Positions 8,549 through 23,633 of a stretch of DNA of 64,000 nt are shown piece by piece. Positions within the stretch are counted from its first letter, which is position 1; every line of letters starts with the position of its first letter. The translations under genes were made by a program, and so were the position numbers. Below the pieces are notes generated by a model. The model saw nothing but the letters and a program-made list of their open reading frames with translations, had not been told where the DNA came from and made no database searches. This DNA comes from Planosporangium mesophilum (GTDB taxonomy: Bacteria; Actinomycetota; Actinomycetes; Mycobacteriales; Micromonosporaceae), in contig NZ_BOON01000043.1 in the NCBI RefSeq assembly GCF_016863255.1, forward strand, positions 25,745 to 89,744. Reading direction: 5' to 3'.

Positions 8549-9090
8549 GCCGCGAGAAGACCCTCGTCGAACTGGTGGACGCCAACGGCCTGACGATCGG
8601 CTCGACCACCGTCGCCGAGGCGCACACCGCACCCGGCCGCCTGCACCGGGCGTTCTCGGTCCTGCTCATCGACGCCGGCGGCCGACTGCTGCTACAGCAG
8701 CGCGCCGAGATCAAGACCCGGTTCCCGCTGCGCTGGGCCAACGCCTGCTGCGGCCACCCGGCTCCGACCGGCGACCTCGTCACGGCGGCGTCACGGCGGC
8801 TGGACGAGGAGCTCGGTCTCGGCTCGATCGCCCTCAAACCCGTCGGCGTGTACGTGTACCGCGCGCTGGACCCGGTCACCGGACGGGTCGAGCACGAGTA
8901 CGACCACGTCCTGGTGGGCGAGGTCGACGGTGAGGTGCCGAGCCCCGACCCGAGCGAGGTGCTCGCGCTGCGGTGGGCCGACCCGGCCGACGTGCGCCGG
9001 GCCGTCGAGGCGGAGCCGCAGTCGTACGCCCCCTGGCTGGCCGGCGTGCTGGCGGTGTGGGACGCGGCGCAGGCGGAGCCTGGCGGGTGA
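8545..9090 (+). CDS. idi: isopentenyl-diphosphate delta-isomerase, type I
   Basis: A 181-residue Nudix-type isomerase that interconverts isopentenyl and dimethylallyl diphosphate, supplying prenyl units for carotenoids. The catalytic cysteine region WANACCGHPAPTGD (near residue 69) and the Nudix-like RRLDEELGL with YDHVLVGEVDGE are present. The ATG overlaps the crtI stop (ATGA), and its own TGA overlaps the GTG of the downstream merR gene, so the three genes are translationally coupled. Length is typical of the type I enzyme. Confidence 0.95.
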   Translation: MSREKTLVELVDANGLTIGSTTVAEAHTAPGRLHRAFSVLLIDAGGRLLLQQRAEIKTRFPLRWANACCGHPAPTGDLVTAASRRLDEELGLGSIALKPVGVYVYRALDPVTGRVEHEYDHVLVGEVDGEVPSPDPSEVLALRWADPADVRRAVEAEPQSYAPWLAGVLAVWDAAQAEPGG

Positions 9091-10028
9091 GCGACGAGCT
9101 GTTGAGCGCCGGGGCCGCCGCCCGCCGCCTCGGGGTTGCGGTCACGACGCTGCGCAGCTGGCACCAGCGGTACGGGCTGGGCCCGAGCGGGCACGAGCAC
9201 GGCCACCATCGCCGCTACACCGGCGACGACCTCGCCCGGCTGGTACTGATGCAGCGCCTCGTCACGGCGGGCGTGGCGCCGGCCGAGGCGGCCCGGTGGG
9301 CCCGTCGGTCACCGCGGGACGCGCCGGTGCCGGCGCCGTCACCCGGGTCGGCACTGAACCCGGCCGCGCGCAGCGGTGGCGGTTACACCCTCGCCCTCGG
9401 CGACGCCGACCCTGCCGCGCGGGGGCTCGCACGCGCCGCGCTGCGGCTGGACGTGCTCGCCGTACGCGATCTCGTGGCGGCCGCCGTCGCCGACCGGGGC
9501 GTCGTCGGCGCCTGGGACGAGGTGCTGTGCCCGGTACTTGTCGCGCTCGGGGTACGGGCCGCGGCCGCGGCGGAGCTGGTGGAGGTCGAGCACGCGCTGT
9601 CGGGCTGCGTCTCGGCGGTGTTCGCGTCACTGGCGTCCGCGCCGTCTGCCCAGCCGGCGCGCGAGCGTCCGGTACGCATCCTGCTCGCCTGTGCCGACGA
9701 GGAGCAGCACAGCCTGCCGACCGAGGCGCTCGCCGCCGCGCTCGCCGAGCGCGGCATACCGTCCCGTGTGCTCGGTGCCCGGGTACCTCCGACCGCGCTA
9801 CGCGCCGCGGTACGTCGGACCGGGCCGGTCGCCGTCCTGCTCTGGGCCCATTCCATCGCCACCGCCGACCCGGCCCAGTTGAACGGTCTGCTGTCCGGCC
9901 GCGGGCGTCCCGCCGTCGTCGCCGCGGGCGGACCCGGCTGGGACGCCGCCACCGTTCCGTCCGGTGTGGTGCTGCCCGCGACCCTCGTCGAAGCGGTCGA
10001 ACTCTTCGTCGCCGCAGCTCATTCCTAG
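9087..10028 (+). CDS. MerR-family regulator with cobalamin-binding-like domain (CarH/LitR type)
   Basis: A 313-residue protein starting at a GTG that overlaps the idi stop. Residues 5-72 are a MerR helix-turn-helix (AARRLGVAVTTLRSWHQRYG, then HRRYTGDDLARL). Residues about 100-185 and 195-310 match the two-part B12-binding region of CarH/LitR photoregulators, which repress carotenoid genes in the dark. Glu167-His168 and the cobalt-ligand-like His207 (EEQHSLP) are kept. The Trp of the W-x9-EH motif is Ala157 and the Gly of ExHxxG is Pro210. It may therefore bind B12 poorly or not respond to light as CarH does. Control of crtB/crtI is inferred from operon context. Confidence 0.85.
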   Translation: MSDELLSAGAAARRLGVAVTTLRSWHQRYGLGPSGHEHGHHRRYTGDDLARLVLMQRLVTAGVAPAEAARWARRSPRDAPVPAPSPGSALNPAARSGGGYTLALGDADPAARGLARAALRLDVLAVRDLVAAAVADRGVVGAWDEVLCPVLVALGVRAAAAAELVEVEHALSGCVSAVFASLASAPSAQPARERPVRILLACADEEQHSLPTEALAAALAERGIPSRVLGARVPPTALRAAVRRTGPVAVLLWAHSIATADPAQLNGLLSGRGRPAVVAAGGPGWDAATVPSGVVLPATLVEAVELFVAAAHS

Positions 10029-10158
10029 CGTCGATCCGGGAGTAACGGCGGCCGCGAACGGCGTCTCCGGCGACCGCTTCTCCTAGATCGACGCAACGGG
10101 ATCAGCGCCGTGGCGCGCTCATCGGAACAGCGTGATAAATGCCTAAACCAATGTTTTA
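10028..10158. promoter_or_regulatory. inverted GATCGACGC pair and AT-rich palindrome
   Basis: GCGTCGATC at 10028-10036 and its reverse complement GATCGACGC at 10086-10094 form an inverted pair, and the second continues as the TCGACGCAA core seen upstream of crtI. At 10144-10158 lies TAAACCAATGTTTTA, a palindrome with one mismatched pair in an otherwise GC-rich region. Both sit between merR and the deacetylase and may be regulator sites. No direct evidence links them to a given protein. Confidence 0.4.
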
Positions 10159-10247
10159 ACCACCCGTACCGGGCCATAGCGCTCCTGGCCTCGCCACCCC
10201 GTACGGGATCTCTCGCGGCGGCCGCCCTCGCGTCCCTGGAGTACCGC

Positions 10248-11132
10248 ATGCCGCCTCACCGCATCCGCACATCGGCACTACTCGCCGGATTTCTCGTCGT
10301 GGTGCTCGGTACCTGGTCCGGCGACAGCTTCGGCGAACGCCCGGCCTCGAACCTGTCGAAACTTCGTGACCATTCCCAGCACCACGCGCTGAACCGGGTG
10401 GCGGTCCCGCCGACGGTCACACCGGCCGCAGCCGCGCCGGGAGCACCCCGGGCCGCGCCACCCGCCGCGATCTTCACGCCCGGCGCCGTGGCCAAGTTCA
10501 CCGGTACCGAAGGGGTGGCGCTCACCTTCGACGACGGCCCCGGCGACCAGACCCTGCCCCTGCTCAACGTGCTGCGAACCTGGGGCGTGAAGGCGACCTT
10601 CTGCTTGATCGGCTCGAACGTCCGGGAGCACCCCGATCTGGTGCGGGCGATCGTGCGCGACGGGCACAGCCTGTGCAACCACACCTGGAACCACGACCTG
10701 AACCTGGGCGCGCAGCCGCCCGACGTGATCCGCTCCGACCTCCAGCGGACCAACGACGAGATCCACCAGGCCGTGCCCGGCGTACCGATCAACTACTTCC
10801 GCCACCCGGGCGGCAACTGGACCCCGACGGCGGTGACCGTCGCCGAGGAGATGGGGATGACCTCGATCGACTGGGACACCGATCCGACCGACTGGGACAC
10901 CACCACGTACGGCGTCGGGCCGATCATGATCGATCACATCGTCTCGACCATCAAACAAGGTGCTCAGCCCGGATCGATCGTGCTGTCCCACGACGGCGGC
11001 GGCGACCGGACCAGCACCGTCGCGGCGTACGAGGCCCTCCTGCCGTACCTGATACAGGACCGGCGTCTGCACCTGGTGCCGCTGCCGACCACGGAGTACC
11101 GGCAGGTCGAGGCGGCCCCGCGGACCAAGTAG
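10248..11132 (+). CDS. exported polysaccharide deacetylase (NodB domain)
   Basis: A 294-residue CE4-family esterase that would remove acetyl groups from a cell-wall or surface glycan. The ATG at 10248 follows TGGAG and gives an N-terminal export segment (ALLAGFLVVVLGTWSG). NodB motifs occur in order: ALTFDDGPGDQ (catalytic Asp pair), LCNHTWNHDLN (His metal ligands), YFRHPGGNWTP, WDTDPTDW and IVLSHDGGG (catalytic His). All expected catalytic residues are visible, so it should be active. The preceding 219-bp gap holds AT-rich palindromic sequence and probably its promoter. Confidence 0.92.
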   Translation: MPPHRIRTSALLAGFLVVVLGTWSGDSFGERPASNLSKLRDHSQHHALNRVAVPPTVTPAAAAPGAPRAAPPAAIFTPGAVAKFTGTEGVALTFDDGPGDQTLPLLNVLRTWGVKATFCLIGSNVREHPDLVRAIVRDGHSLCNHTWNHDLNLGAQPPDVIRSDLQRTNDEIHQAVPGVPINYFRHPGGNWTPTAVTVAEEMGMTSIDWDTDPTDWDTTTYGVGPIMIDHIVSTIKQGAQPGSIVLSHDGGGDRTSTVAAYEALLPYLIQDRRLHLVPLPTTEYRQVEAAPRTK

Positions 11133-16382: not shown

Positions 16383-16808
16383 TCAGCGCTCGCCGCCGTC
16401 GCGGCGGCGCAGCGTCGCCACCGCCGAGCCGGCGAGGGTCATCAGGCACTGGGGCAGCTTGCCGTCGGCGATGGCAGCCCCGAACAGCGCCTCCCCGCTG
16501 GCGTCGTCGGCGTTGGCGTACGCGCTCAGGAACCGCGCCACCCACCGCTTGTCGTAGGGGGCCTCTTCGATGCCGGGGAACTCCAGCCGCCACGGTCCGG
16601 CGACTATGCCGTCACCGACCGTGGCGCCAGCCAGGCTCCACGCGACCTCGTACGCGCCGGTCACGCCGGAGCGGACCGCCGCCTTGTCGAACGCGTCGAC
16701 CACGCCGTCGCCGTCTCCGGCCAGCGCGGAGCGCAGCACGAGCGCGACGTCGTCGAACACGTCGTCCGGTTGGGCTTCCACGTTGCGCAGCGTATCCGTC
16801 ACCGTCAA
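16383..16808 (-). CDS. hypothetical protein
   Basis: A 141-residue soluble protein, mostly helical and acidic in its first half (DDVFDDVALVLRSALAGDGD). It has conserved-looking features such as GPWRLEFPGIEEAPYDKRW. No signal peptide or membrane segment. I do not recognise a named family. It is convergent with the gene at 15793 and lies 38 bp downstream of the thioesterase gene on the same strand, so the two may be co-transcribed. Confidence 0.7.
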   Translation of the reverse strand: MTVTDTLRNVEAQPDDVFDDVALVLRSALAGDGDGVVDAFDKAAVRSGVTGAYEVAWSLAGATVGDGIVAGPWRLEFPGIEEAPYDKRWVARFLSAYANADDASGEALFGAAIADGKLPQCLMTLAGSAVATLRRRDGGER

Positions 16809-17395: not shown

Positions 17396-18769
17396 ATGCG
17401 GCGTGTCACCCGCCCCGTATCGACTGTTGCCGCGGTGGCCGCGGTGCTGCTCGCGGCGAGTTGCGGCACCTCGAAGCAGCCCGAACGCGGAGCGAGCGGG
17501 GACAGGGGCGACGGTCAGGTCCGCCTGTACGGCTCGGACGGCAACATGAGCAGTTCGTTCGGCGACGTCCTCAAGGACCAGCAGGGCGTGCTGGCCGGCA
17601 TGAAAGGGACCGCGCCGCTCTCGCCGCTCACCGAGGAGTTCAAGCGGCGGATCCGGGGCGTCGACCCGAGCGTGCCCGACTTCAACTACGCCGGTGAGGC
17701 GTACGACGCGGTCATCGTCTCGGCGCTGGCGGCCGAGGTCGCGCGCTCCACGGACGCCTCCACGATGGCGAAGAACATCGTGGGCGTGACCGTGGGCGGC
17801 ACCGAATGCGCCAGCTTCCAGCAGTGCGCCGCCCTCGTACGGCAGAACCAGAACGTCCAGTACCGAGGGGTGTCCTCACTCAAGCGCAGCGGCTTCACGG
17901 ACGCCGGCGAGCCGTCCACCGCCACCTACGGCACGCTCAACTTCGGCCGGGACAACCACATCGACGACGCCAAGACCGAGTTCGTCGGTGCCGGTGACGA
18001 GTCGACCGCGAGCAGGAACGCTGCCGCGCCCGCGCCGTCCACGCCGCCCGGCAGCGGCCGCGCCCCGAAGGCGCCGCCGCTGAAGTTCGGCGGCCTGCTG
18101 CCGCACACCGGCGCACTCGCCAGTGCCGGTCCGCCGATCTTCGCCGGCGGGAAGCTCGCGGTACAGGAGATCAACGAGGCCGGCGGGGTGCTGGGCCAGC
18201 CGGTGGAGTGGGTCGACGGCGACGACGGCACCAGCGCGCAGACCGCCGTGATAACGGCCGACAGGTTCATCGCCGCCGGCGTACAGGTGTTGATCGGCCC
18301 GGCCGCCTCCACCGCCGCCGCCGCGGTAGTTCCCAAGGCGGTGGCGGCCGGGCGTATCGTCTTCTCGCCTACGGCGACCTCGGAGGGGCTGTCCCAGCTC
18401 GACGACAAGGGCCTGTTCTTCCGTACCGCGCCCTCGGACAAGCTGCAGGCCAAGGCCCTGGCCGACGTCGTGATGCGGGACGGCGTCTCCAAGGTGGTCG
18501 TCGTCGCCCGCGACGACGAGTACGGCACCGGCCTGCGCAACGGCATCCAGGCCGACCTGACCGGCGCGGGGATCAAGGCGAGCAACATCAAGGTGCTGTC
18601 GTACAAGGTCAAGGACAAGTACGACGTCGCCGACCAGACCGGCCAGTTCGGGCCGCTGGCCAAGGCCGTCAAGGAGTTCGGGGCGGACGCGGTGGTGATC
18701 ATCGGGTTCGAGGAGTCCGCCCTCTTCGTCAAGGCGCTGCGCGACGAGCAGCTGGTCCCCGGGTCCTAG
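17396..18769 (+). CDS. circularly permuted type I ABC substrate-binding lipoprotein
   Basis: A 457-residue lipoprotein with GGAGGGG before its ATG. The lipobox is LLAASC (Cys23). Residues 42-203 (RLYGSDGN, FKRRIRGVDPSVPDFNYAGE, AYDAVIVSALAAEVA, and the Cys pair in GGTECASFQQCAALV) match what is normally the C-terminal half of a branched-chain-amino-acid-type binding protein. Residues 204-228 are a Pro/Ala linker. Residues 229-457 (LKFGGLLPHTGALASAGPP, GKLAVQEINEAGGVLGQPV, FRTAPSDKLQ) are the normal N-terminal half, and the protein ends at LRDEQLVPGS, just where RLYGSDGN would usually follow. The reading frame is intact. No permease or ATPase gene is adjacent, so the ligand and partner are unknown. 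Confidence 0.88.
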   Translation: MRRVTRPVSTVAAVAAVLLAASCGTSKQPERGASGDRGDGQVRLYGSDGNMSSSFGDVLKDQQGVLAGMKGTAPLSPLTEEFKRRIRGVDPSVPDFNYAGEAYDAVIVSALAAEVARSTDASTMAKNIVGVTVGGTECASFQQCAALVRQNQNVQYRGVSSLKRSGFTDAGEPSTATYGTLNFGRDNHIDDAKTEFVGAGDESTASRNAAAPAPSTPPGSGRAPKAPPLKFGGLLPHTGALASAGPPIFAGGKLAVQEINEAGGVLGQPVEWVDGDDGTSAQTAVITADRFIAAGVQVLIGPAASTAAAAVVPKAVAAGRIVFSPTATSEGLSQLDDKGLFFRTAPSDKLQAKALADVVMRDGVSKVVVVARDDEYGTGLRNGIQADLTGAGIKASNIKVLSYKVKDKYDVADQTGQFGPLAKAVKEFGADAVVIIGFEESALFVKALRDEQLVPGS

Positions 18770-18871: not shown

Positions 18872-19111
18872 ATGAGCGACAGCGTGGAGACCAGGGGCGA
18901 CGAGCGGAACGACCTGGTGGTGAAGGACGCCAACAACGACGGCAGGCCGGACCTGTGGGTCGTCGACACCGACGGCGACGGCAAGCCGGACGTGTTCCAG
19001 TTCGACACCGACGGCGACGGGAAGGTCGACATCACGATCGTGGACCGTACCCAGGACGGCCAGCCCGACGAGGTGATCGACGGCGACGGCGGGATGCCAC
19101 CGCGGACCTGA
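18872..19111 (+). CDS. small protein of 13-residue DxDxDG calcium-loop repeats
   Basis: A 79-residue protein with GAGGAG before its ATG at 18872. Four acidic loops start at residues 19, 32, 45 and 58, an exact 13-residue period: DANNDGRPD, DTDGDGKPD, DTDGDGKVD and DRTQDGQPD. These resemble the calcium-binding loops of thrombospondin type 3 repeats and EF-hands. There is no signal peptide, whereas most such repeats are extracellular. It lies between the permuted binding protein and the convergent prsW gene. Calcium binding is inferred from the ligand pattern. Confidence 0.82.
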   Translation: MSDSVETRGDERNDLVVKDANNDGRPDLWVVDTDGDGKPDVFQFDTDGDGKVDITIVDRTQDGQPDEVIDGDGGMPPRT

Positions 19112-22315: not shown

Positions 22316-23512
22316 CTACCCCAGCGTGGTCAGCGGCGTCAGGACGACGTTGGACAGCACGCCGCCGTCCCGGCGCACCTGCCGTAGGTACCACATCTGC
22401 AGCGGGGTGCGGTTCTGGTTGAACTGCCACGGACCGCGCGGGCTGTCGATCGACCCGATCTTGCCGAGGGCCAGGTTGACGGCCTGCGGTGTGAGGGTGT
22501 CCCCGTCCACCGCGGCGATCGCCTTGTCCAGTACCGAGGCGGCGTCGTAGGAGGCCATCGCGTACGAGGTGGGGGCGGCGTTGTGCGCCTTCTGGTACGC
22601 CGAGGCGAACCGCCGGTTGGCGTCGTTGTCCAGGTCGGACGAGTAGTTCATCGAGGTGTAGATCTTCTCCGCGGCGGAGCCCTGGTCCCGCAGCACGGCG
22701 CCCTCGGTGAGGAAGCCCGGCGCGTACAGGTCCTGGGGCAGGTTCAACTGCCGGTACTGCTTGACGAACTCGACCGCCTGTGCGCCCGCGAAGAAGCAGA
22801 GCACGGCCTTGGCACGGGAGTTCCTGATGCTGGCAAGGTAGGGCTGGAAGTTCATGGTCGGGGTCGGGGTGAACGGCGTGTAGATGGGCGCGCCCTCGAC
22901 CTTGTCGCCGTACGTCGACAGGAACCCTTCGATCTCGTCGTGCCCCGCCTGGTAGTCGGGCGCGATCAGCGCGACCGAGCCGTTACCGATCTTGCTCGCC
23001 ACGTACCGGCCGAGGGCCTTGCCCGGCTCGTCGTTGACGAACGAGGTGCGCCAGATGTACCGGACGCCCTGAAGGGTGGTCGGTGAGGCGTTGGAGCCGA
23101 TCAGCGGGGTCTGTGAAGCCTCGACAAGGTCGCGAACCGCGGCCATGGTGGCCGAACTGGCCACACCGGACAGCGCCAGTACCTTCTCCTGCTTGATCAG
23201 ACGCTCGACGGCGGCCTTGCCGGACTCGGCGGTCTCGCCCTCGTCGACGGTGATCAGGTTGGCCGGCCGGCCGCCCAGGCTCTTGTTGTTGAGGCTCAGG
23301 TACAGGTCGAAGCCCCGGCTCAACTCGTCGCCGATCGTCTTGTACATGCCGGACTGCGGCACGACCAGCCCGATCCTCACGGGATCCAGGGTCGTGGCCG
23401 ACTGCCGGTCCCCGCTGCCGATGCCGCAGGCTGACAGGATGGGCGCCGCGGCCCCTCCGACGCCGAGCGCGGCGAGAAGTCTGAGCGCCTGCCGGCGGGT
23501 GAGCTCGGACAA
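22316..23512 (-). CDS. ABC transporter substrate-binding protein, type I fold, normal domain order
   Basis: A 398-residue exported lipoprotein-like protein. A TTG at 23512 preceded by GGAGG was chosen; it gives a twin-arginine-like signal (LTRRQALRLLAALGVGG) with lipobox-like ILSAC. The mature part follows the normal order: VRIGLVVPQSGMYKTIGDE, SGVASSATMAAVRDL, YIWRTSFVNDEPGKALGRY, then GFLTEGAVLRDQ and YAMASYDAASVLDKAI. It belongs to the branched-chain amino acid or urea/amide receptor family. No transporter genes are adjacent. It serves as a local comparison for the permuted protein at 17396. Confidence 0.9.
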   Translation of the reverse strand: MSELTRRQALRLLAALGVGGAAAPILSACGIGSGDRQSATTLDPVRIGLVVPQSGMYKTIGDELSRGFDLYLSLNNKSLGGRPANLITVDEGETAESGKAAVERLIKQEKVLALSGVASSATMAAVRDLVEASQTPLIGSNASPTTLQGVRYIWRTSFVNDEPGKALGRYVASKIGNGSVALIAPDYQAGHDEIEGFLSTYGDKVEGAPIYTPFTPTPTMNFQPYLASIRNSRAKAVLCFFAGAQAVEFVKQYRQLNLPQDLYAPGFLTEGAVLRDQGSAAEKIYTSMNYSSDLDNDANRRFASAYQKAHNAAPTSYAMASYDAASVLDKAIAAVDGDTLTPQAVNLALGKIGSIDSPRGPWQFNQNRTPLQMWYLRQVRRDGGVLSNVVLTPLTTLG

Positions 23513-23633
23513 GTGATCCTCCACAAGGACGGCAGGGCCCAGCCAGTACCCGACCCCGATGCGCGTTCTACCCGCTTTCTCGGTGAGCGTCAATCCGCTG
23601 CCACATGGCGGTCGTCTCGCGACCGCGTCGTGC

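Follow-up and report, generated by a model that had tools for sequence, protein, structure and literature searches.

A LIVBP-type binding lipoprotein of Planosporangium mesophilum with halves swapped by natural circular permutation, a change that has probably recurred in its gene lineage

The window analysed here is a stretch of 64,000 nucleotides from Planosporangium mesophilum (Micromonosporaceae; RefSeq assembly GCF_016863255.1, contig NZ_BOON01000043.1). At 17396..18769 (+) it encodes a substrate-binding lipoprotein of 457 amino acids with its halves in permuted order, as indicated by the open reading frame (ORF), a Pfam match and full-length homologues of the same order. The protein starts with a predicted lipoprotein signal peptide (17396..17464, +) whose last residue is Cys23, in a sequence context typical of a lipobox. 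After a short spacer, the old C-terminal half forms the new N-terminus (residues 42-203, starting VRLYGSDGN; 17519..18004, +); it reaches 47% identity to the matching part of relatives with normal order, their second half. A Pro/Ala linker, recognised from the sequence, the model confidence and linker comparisons (residues 204-228; 18005..18079, +), bridges the old C- and N-termini and is followed by the old N-terminal half (residues 229-457, ending LRDEQLVPGS; 18080..18766, +). Frame, length and halves had been given in this form by the initial annotation, and ORF and translation agree. The Cys pair of the family, Cys138-Cys144, lies at 17807..17827 (+), and Asp48, predicted to contact the ligand together with Ser305, Thr328, Tyr376 and Glu440, at 17537..17539 (+).

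Positions 1-212 of the 343 positions of the Pfam family Peripla_BP_6 align with residues 228-450 (114.9 bits, curated cut-off 31.7), and the remainder of the profile sits upstream; the canonical linear order is thus not kept over the length of the profile. The old C-terminal half alone gives a weak match to ANF_receptor that stays under the cut-off (positions 232-329 of 353, residues 65-160, E 0.0044, 16.6 bits), and Peripla_BP_6, ANF_receptor and Peripla_BP_5 are the only Pfam families matched. When the chain is re-joined as 229-457 plus 42-203, Peripla_BP_6 is covered from 3 to 312 in one stretch, with 125.4 bits as against 114.9 for the chain as encoded. Against the PDB, the re-joined chain matches seven of the 12 listed sequences through both halves (such as 4mlc, query 20-316) and five in the first half only. 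Single-sequence scores barely shift on re-joining (4mlc 69.5 vs 68.4 bits, 4n0q 60.1 vs 56.0) and drop for 4gnr (61.5 vs 64.4) because the moved half is divergent, the gain being that the alignment becomes one stretch. The second substrate-binding protein of the window (22316..23593, -) served as a control and has the normal order that had been ascribed to it, with Pfam Peripla_BP_6 matching from 1 to 342 of 343. In four other loci of the family (L126, L127, L131, L141), relatives of this second protein are likewise found close to the permuted gene.

The decisive comparison for the swapped order is with normal-order relatives. The moved half is at most 47% identical to three of them (L085, L111, L113), and a single normal-order gene, L085, shows 44% and 47% identity to the two halves. 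Judged by these alignments, the protein is a Peripla_BP_6 or LIVBP-type member by descent with its order permuted. Its halves are homologous to one gene in swapped order, the old termini are joined by a linker and the new termini lie at one former loop, which qualifies it, on the same comparisons, as a natural circular permutant. The swap claimed in the initial annotation is thereby upheld against the refutation named there, a better alignment of the halves in the encoded order, as is the claim that codon use resembles that of the neighbours: GC content at third codon positions (GC3) is 0.94 and 0.95 in the two halves and 0.89-0.94 in six neighbouring genes. Order-based annotation and fold searches detect just one half of such permuted proteins.

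An AlphaFold model of the chain as encoded is confident, with a predicted local distance difference test (pLDDT) score of 88.7 and block values of 91, 71 and 83 across the linker region 201-230. The predicted fold is the two-lobed type I structure. The matches from Foldseek and VIA are largely confined to the old first half, and the absence of other folds there is uninformative. Model residues 227-456 pair with residues 1-221 of 3ipc, which places the break in the predicted structure in lobe 2, in the loop ahead of the strand leading towards the hinge, given the usual lobe limits. The original placing of the break at the hinge strand itself has to be corrected accordingly.

The permuted order is widely conserved. 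Genome surveys scored the best few candidates per genome, so that absences in them are soft. Three other Planosporangium genomes carry the full-length gene in the same order with 68-75% identity. Among 354 Micromonosporaceae genomes, 267 match at E <= 1e-35. The search for the same order that had been proposed with the initial annotation yields a strong match in 243 of the 354, with a best E <= 2.3e-68 (<= 4.5e-102 in 242), and the matches listed for these 243 are collinear with the permuted query, bar G264. In that one draft genome the permuted gene is split between two frames (L047/L058, G264:C76:12860-14160). The other 24 of the 267 have weaker matches only (1e-40 to 7e-36), and all seven examined are of normal order. 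At least 120 homologues of the window protein exist, and 120 of 120 among the matches listed are permuted; named carriers include Planosporangium, Dactylosporangium and Phytohabitans. A sample of 298 genomes from the order added 45 genomes of family f16 and one of f13 with a permuted gene of 40-47% identity. Cys23 is invariant in 62 of 62 aligned permuted sequences, and Cys138/Cys144, the pair that the initial annotation described as kept, are retained in 48 of 48 normal and 74 of 74 permuted sequences (122 of 122).

The predicted ligand site is equally stable. In an alignment made without L047, L066 and L097, Ser305, Thr328, Tyr376, Asp48 and Glu440 show no variation across 48 normal sequences, 49 permuted ones from Micromonosporaceae and 25 other permuted ones. 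In LIVBP, such positions contact the amino and carboxyl groups of an amino acid. Since both orders keep these core contacts unchanged, the protein can be inferred to bind an amino-acid-like ligand in its cleft. At position 277, all 49 Micromonosporaceae permuted sequences carry Asp or Glu, whereas 45 of 48 normal and all 25 other permuted ones have Ser.

In other families the gene lies in the arrangement pyk-pdtaR-SBP> <livF-livG-livM-livH-(4HBT)-polA, with variations, SBP being the substrate-binding protein and 4HBT a thioesterase. At this locus, which is likely the gene's home, many families have the normal order and others the permuted one. Permuted loci outside Micromonosporaceae adjoin liv genes in 15 of 16 cases in one locus set and in five of five in another, the exception being L145, the second of two copies carried by G411; the L199 contig stops past livG, and L215 has its liv genes on the opposite side. 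Normal-order loci adjoin liv genes in 26 of 28 and six of seven cases in the same two sets. Since permuted and normal genes stand beside the same liv genes, the chain was likely rotated in place. Extra permuted copies off the liv locus occur in L140 (G111), L143 (G081) and L145 (G411), and the copy in L143 is followed by co-directional genes including distant ABC (ATP-binding cassette) ATPases. In G111, LivH (L151:13153-14457, -) has a signal-peptide-like start and an N-terminal CarboxypepD_reg-like stretch (28.2 bits, cut-off 32.3), and LivH proteins of similar length occur at other loci; from its sequence this stretch is a possible docking part for the binding protein.

The surroundings of the window gene are different. 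None of 13 Micromonosporaceae permuted loci lies beside this LivFGMH importer; the ATPases present in L132 and L143 are distant ones (27-29% identity). The divergent neighbour of the window gene is a 4HBT thioesterase (PF03061; 16847..17263, -), relatives of which flank the liv/polA locus in other families. With its counterpart at the liv/polA locus it shares 48-65% identity, which hints at an origin of the orphan gene from the home locus. A small conserved protein without a Pfam match (16383..16808, -) adjoins 11 of the 13 loci; counted over these loci, the thioesterase is a neighbour in six and another conserved gene, c17, in 11. Directly downstream of the permuted gene, an ORF of 79 residues (18872..19111, +) contains DxDGDG-like repeats and perhaps encodes a calcium-binding protein.

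The separation from the importer is also seen at the level of genomes. A LivM orthologue was found in seven of 24 genomes, all of which carry a normal copy, G111, G107 and G320 having a permuted copy as well. At E <= 1e-45 no LivM orthologue was found in the other 17, of which 15 have only permuted copies listed and two have neither form. For normal copies in the 15 permuted-only genomes, all candidates were scored in nine and the best four in six. Median path lengths from the group I node (groups as defined below) are 0.54 for nine permuted f16/f13 rows, 0.63 for five normal rows and 1.21 for 16 Micromonosporaceae rows; in f41, five permuted rows have 0.49 and 15 normal rows 0.45. Since rates are similar in both orders, permutation alone seems not to speed change; the faster change in Micromonosporaceae, about twofold, goes with separation from the importer.

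At the home locus the permuted protein would serve the adjacent LivFGMH as the normal form does, its lipid anchor then being attached to lobe 2 rather than lobe 1. The Micromonosporaceae permuted protein is an orphan that would hand its ligand to another importer or act as a binding receptor. A tentative alternative is that the orphan has left transport and works as a sensor or ligand reservoir at the membrane. The failure to find a LivM orthologue in the 15 permuted-only genomes, the about twofold faster change and the acidic residue at position 277 would fit such a role, against which stands that no sensor partner gene was identified.

How often the permutation arose was studied in trees built from halves re-joined in normal order. 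The comparison with normal relatives comprised loci L001-L125, of which 104 distinct genes remained, and the first tree contained 58 of these plus one outgroup. A later tree omitted the long-branch L066, and the approximately unbiased (AU) test, the half trees and the test with one f41 row (below) omitted both outgroup and L066. In a further tree, seven more long-branch rows were taken out and 13 added, and for a tree with a second break point, 14 of 57 rows were taken out and 16 added. A test on 30 permuted and 27 normal rows rejected a single permuted clade, for which the log-likelihood fell by 124.6 (AU p 6.6e-51). In short searches, the tree of each half placed the permuted sequences of f39, f49 and f41 with one normal set, apart from the permuted sequences of f1, f16 and f13, and the two half trees agree in their main groups.

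Both arrangements occur in the taxonomic order to which G733 belongs. Of 245 genomes, 47 match at E <= 1e-60; five of these are permuted and 42 are not, with normal order in all 15 checked. The five f41 permutants lie inside the normal sequences of their family, whose first and second halves reach 74% and 71% identity, respectively, to those of G733. The motif ADSGDG[TE]P occurs in five of five permuted and 14 of 15 normal sequences of this family and in none of 105 elsewhere. A common clade of the f41 permutants with those of f39 and f49 was rejected (p 1.9e-4). At least 120 homologues of the G733 protein exist, all permuted among the matches listed, and the named ones belong to Nocardioides or Marmoricola.

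A draw of 316 genomes across the phylum gave 35 matches at E <= 1e-45, comprising two Micromonosporaceae with the first break, 28 genomes without a permuted match (five of five checked being normal) and five permutants with a second break, namely G1246 (f70), G1426 (f124) and G1443, G1330 and G1388 (f83). The second break lies about 20-25 residues further on, and a strand-helix unit with the DGN motif is thus C-terminal. A tree including these rows needs six changes, of which well-supported branches force at least four. Changes counted on a tree could also be losses; gains are the simpler reading because other Peripla_BP_6 proteins have the normal order, and two different breaks point to at least two gains. 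Taken together, trees, AU tests, linkers and the two break points suggest at least four likely independent permutations, in groups I (f1, f16, f13), II (f39, f49) and III (f41) and at the second break, some of the separations being not significant. This recurrence is new beyond the single-gene observation of the initial annotation.

The linkers were compared in a revised test in which ends common to normal proteins were removed and the control keeps relatedness. Linker cores are alike within group I (f1 vs f16/f13; the control reaches the mean score in 7 of 1000 cases and the best-pair score in 94) and within group II (21 and 21 of 1000), and on average unrelated between groups. A relation between the linkers of groups II and III, suggested by a first comparison (z 10.2 for f49, 5.0 for f39), faded to control values of 228 and 56 of 1000 by mean. 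Group III linkers retain the end of the normal N-terminal spacer, such as PKGDG ahead of the first strand. In G719, two co-directional normal-order copies stand in tandem at the liv locus (L160:6569-7870 and 8947-10248), as the first step of duplication and loss. Both findings lend indirect support to the duplication-and-loss route proposed in the initial annotation.

Several points weigh against this reading. No fusion intermediate or relic of the type A-B-A-B was found in the neighbourhoods examined or among 361 proteins of up to 1.75x query length, and longer fusions could not appear because of this length limit. Groups I, II and III share the break loop: in an alignment that also lacks L031, the C-terminus lies 16-19 residues beyond the position of Glu440, with medians within one residue (f16/f13 17, f39 17, f49 18, f41 17) and a median of 17 (11-24) in Micromonosporaceae, which is also compatible with a single ancient permutation and gene conversion afterwards. 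Between group III and f1, a high score was obtained for one pair of linkers (control 45 of 1000). With one f41 row, a clade of f39, f49 and f41 was not rejected (p 0.083). Nor was a clade of the five second-break proteins, which may stem from one event, in a test in which 10 of 59 rows had no trimming motif and were truncated at a set position (p 0.108). Support for group I is 75/56 in one tree and 97/93 with fewer rows, and the group is split in a third. Sparse f41 rows put the permuted L169 with the normal L177 (93/93), as against one f41 clade (94/91) elsewhere, and the number of events within f41 is therefore unsure. As to the orphan state, the exclusion of normal copies in six of the 15 permuted-only genomes covers the four best candidates at E <= 1e-35.

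A rival explanation is a single ancient permutation that left a permuted paralogue beside the normal gene, followed by differential loss and repeated conversion of both halves. The near-identical break in groups I-III and the coexistence of both forms in some genomes, such as G111, speak for it. However, conversion of both halves would be required in several lineages, the two forms present in G111 belong to separate clades and show no conversion, and the five permuted against 42 other genomes in the order of G733 (best candidates scored), the linker cores that on average differ between groups and the second break all argue in the opposite direction, which makes this course of events improbable. 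The joining of halves from two different genes, as considered for the permuted binding protein TpMglB-2 and here suggested by the weak Pfam match of the old C-terminal half alone, is far less probable still and is largely refuted by the close relatives of both halves within one normal gene (44% and 47% for L085) and by the agreeing half trees. An assembly error (the rearrangement that the initial annotation had named as a possible refutation), a pseudogene or a chance ORF is hardly worth considering, as only the odd order and the two frames in the G264 draft point that way, and it is refuted by the same order in many independent genomes and metagenome proteins, the kept Cys and pocket residues and the coding-like GC3.

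Thus, in the most probable reading, the window gene encodes a predicted LIVBP-type lipoprotein whose halves were swapped by natural circular permutation, an event that likely took place at least four times in the gene lineage, probably via tandem duplication and loss. At each event, a tandem duplication would have been followed by loss with the signal peptide staying in place, and the chain would fold into the usual two-lobed type I structure with the linker spanning the old termini. A more speculative and somewhat doubtful extension is a permutation hot spot, in which Actinomycetota lineages repeatedly rotate the chain at one of two neighbouring loops, at an unchanged locus, because the anchor shift alters importer contact, the family of the window gene having then freed the rotated protein for a new role.

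A natural circular permutation is commonly interpreted as one ancient event. Here both orders occur in close orthologues of one gene at one locus with the same importer adjacent, likely several times over, which makes two questions testable: the genomic route of permutation, and whether chain order and anchor position matter to a binding protein and its ABC importer. The protein shares sequence family, predicted fold and contact positions with LivJ, LivK and LIVBP (3ipc, 4gnr, 4n0q, 4mlc) and differs from them in the linear order of the halves and the place of the lipid anchor. The initial annotation knew of no natural example in this receptor family. That holds for the LIVBP type, in that no permuted LIVBP-type protein and no repeated permutation of one binding-protein gene was found in the openly licensed literature searched. 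Circular permutation is also known among glycine betaine-binding proteins, another class of ABC binding proteins (type II). These are related structurally at less than 24% identity, and the accessible part of the report does not mention in-place orthologues (CPSARST, PMC2395249). For the type I class as a whole the statement has to be limited in view of TpMglB-2 (Tp0684), a published circular permutant from the sugar-binding class of type I proteins, in which ligand binding and conformational change are preserved; it has homologues in treponemes and Gram-positive bacteria and was proposed as 'Type Ic / Cluster Bc', with tethering suggested as a reason for its permutation (PMC4990184). Both are circularly permuted two-lobed type I binding lipoproteins, and in this respect the window protein falls under Type Ic. 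According to that report, TpMglB-2 has sugar-binding (MglB) homology, its first three N-lobe strands lie near the C-terminus and there is a fourth cross-over, and its permuted part is hardly alignable (13% identity). In contrast, the protein described here belongs to LIVBP/Peripla_BP_6, about 221 residues (the first half) have moved, the break lies in lobe 2, normal relatives exist at the same locus and the event is probably recurrent. Thus, permutation of type I binding lipoproteins was already known, and the LIVBP-type permutant and its probable recurrence are new.
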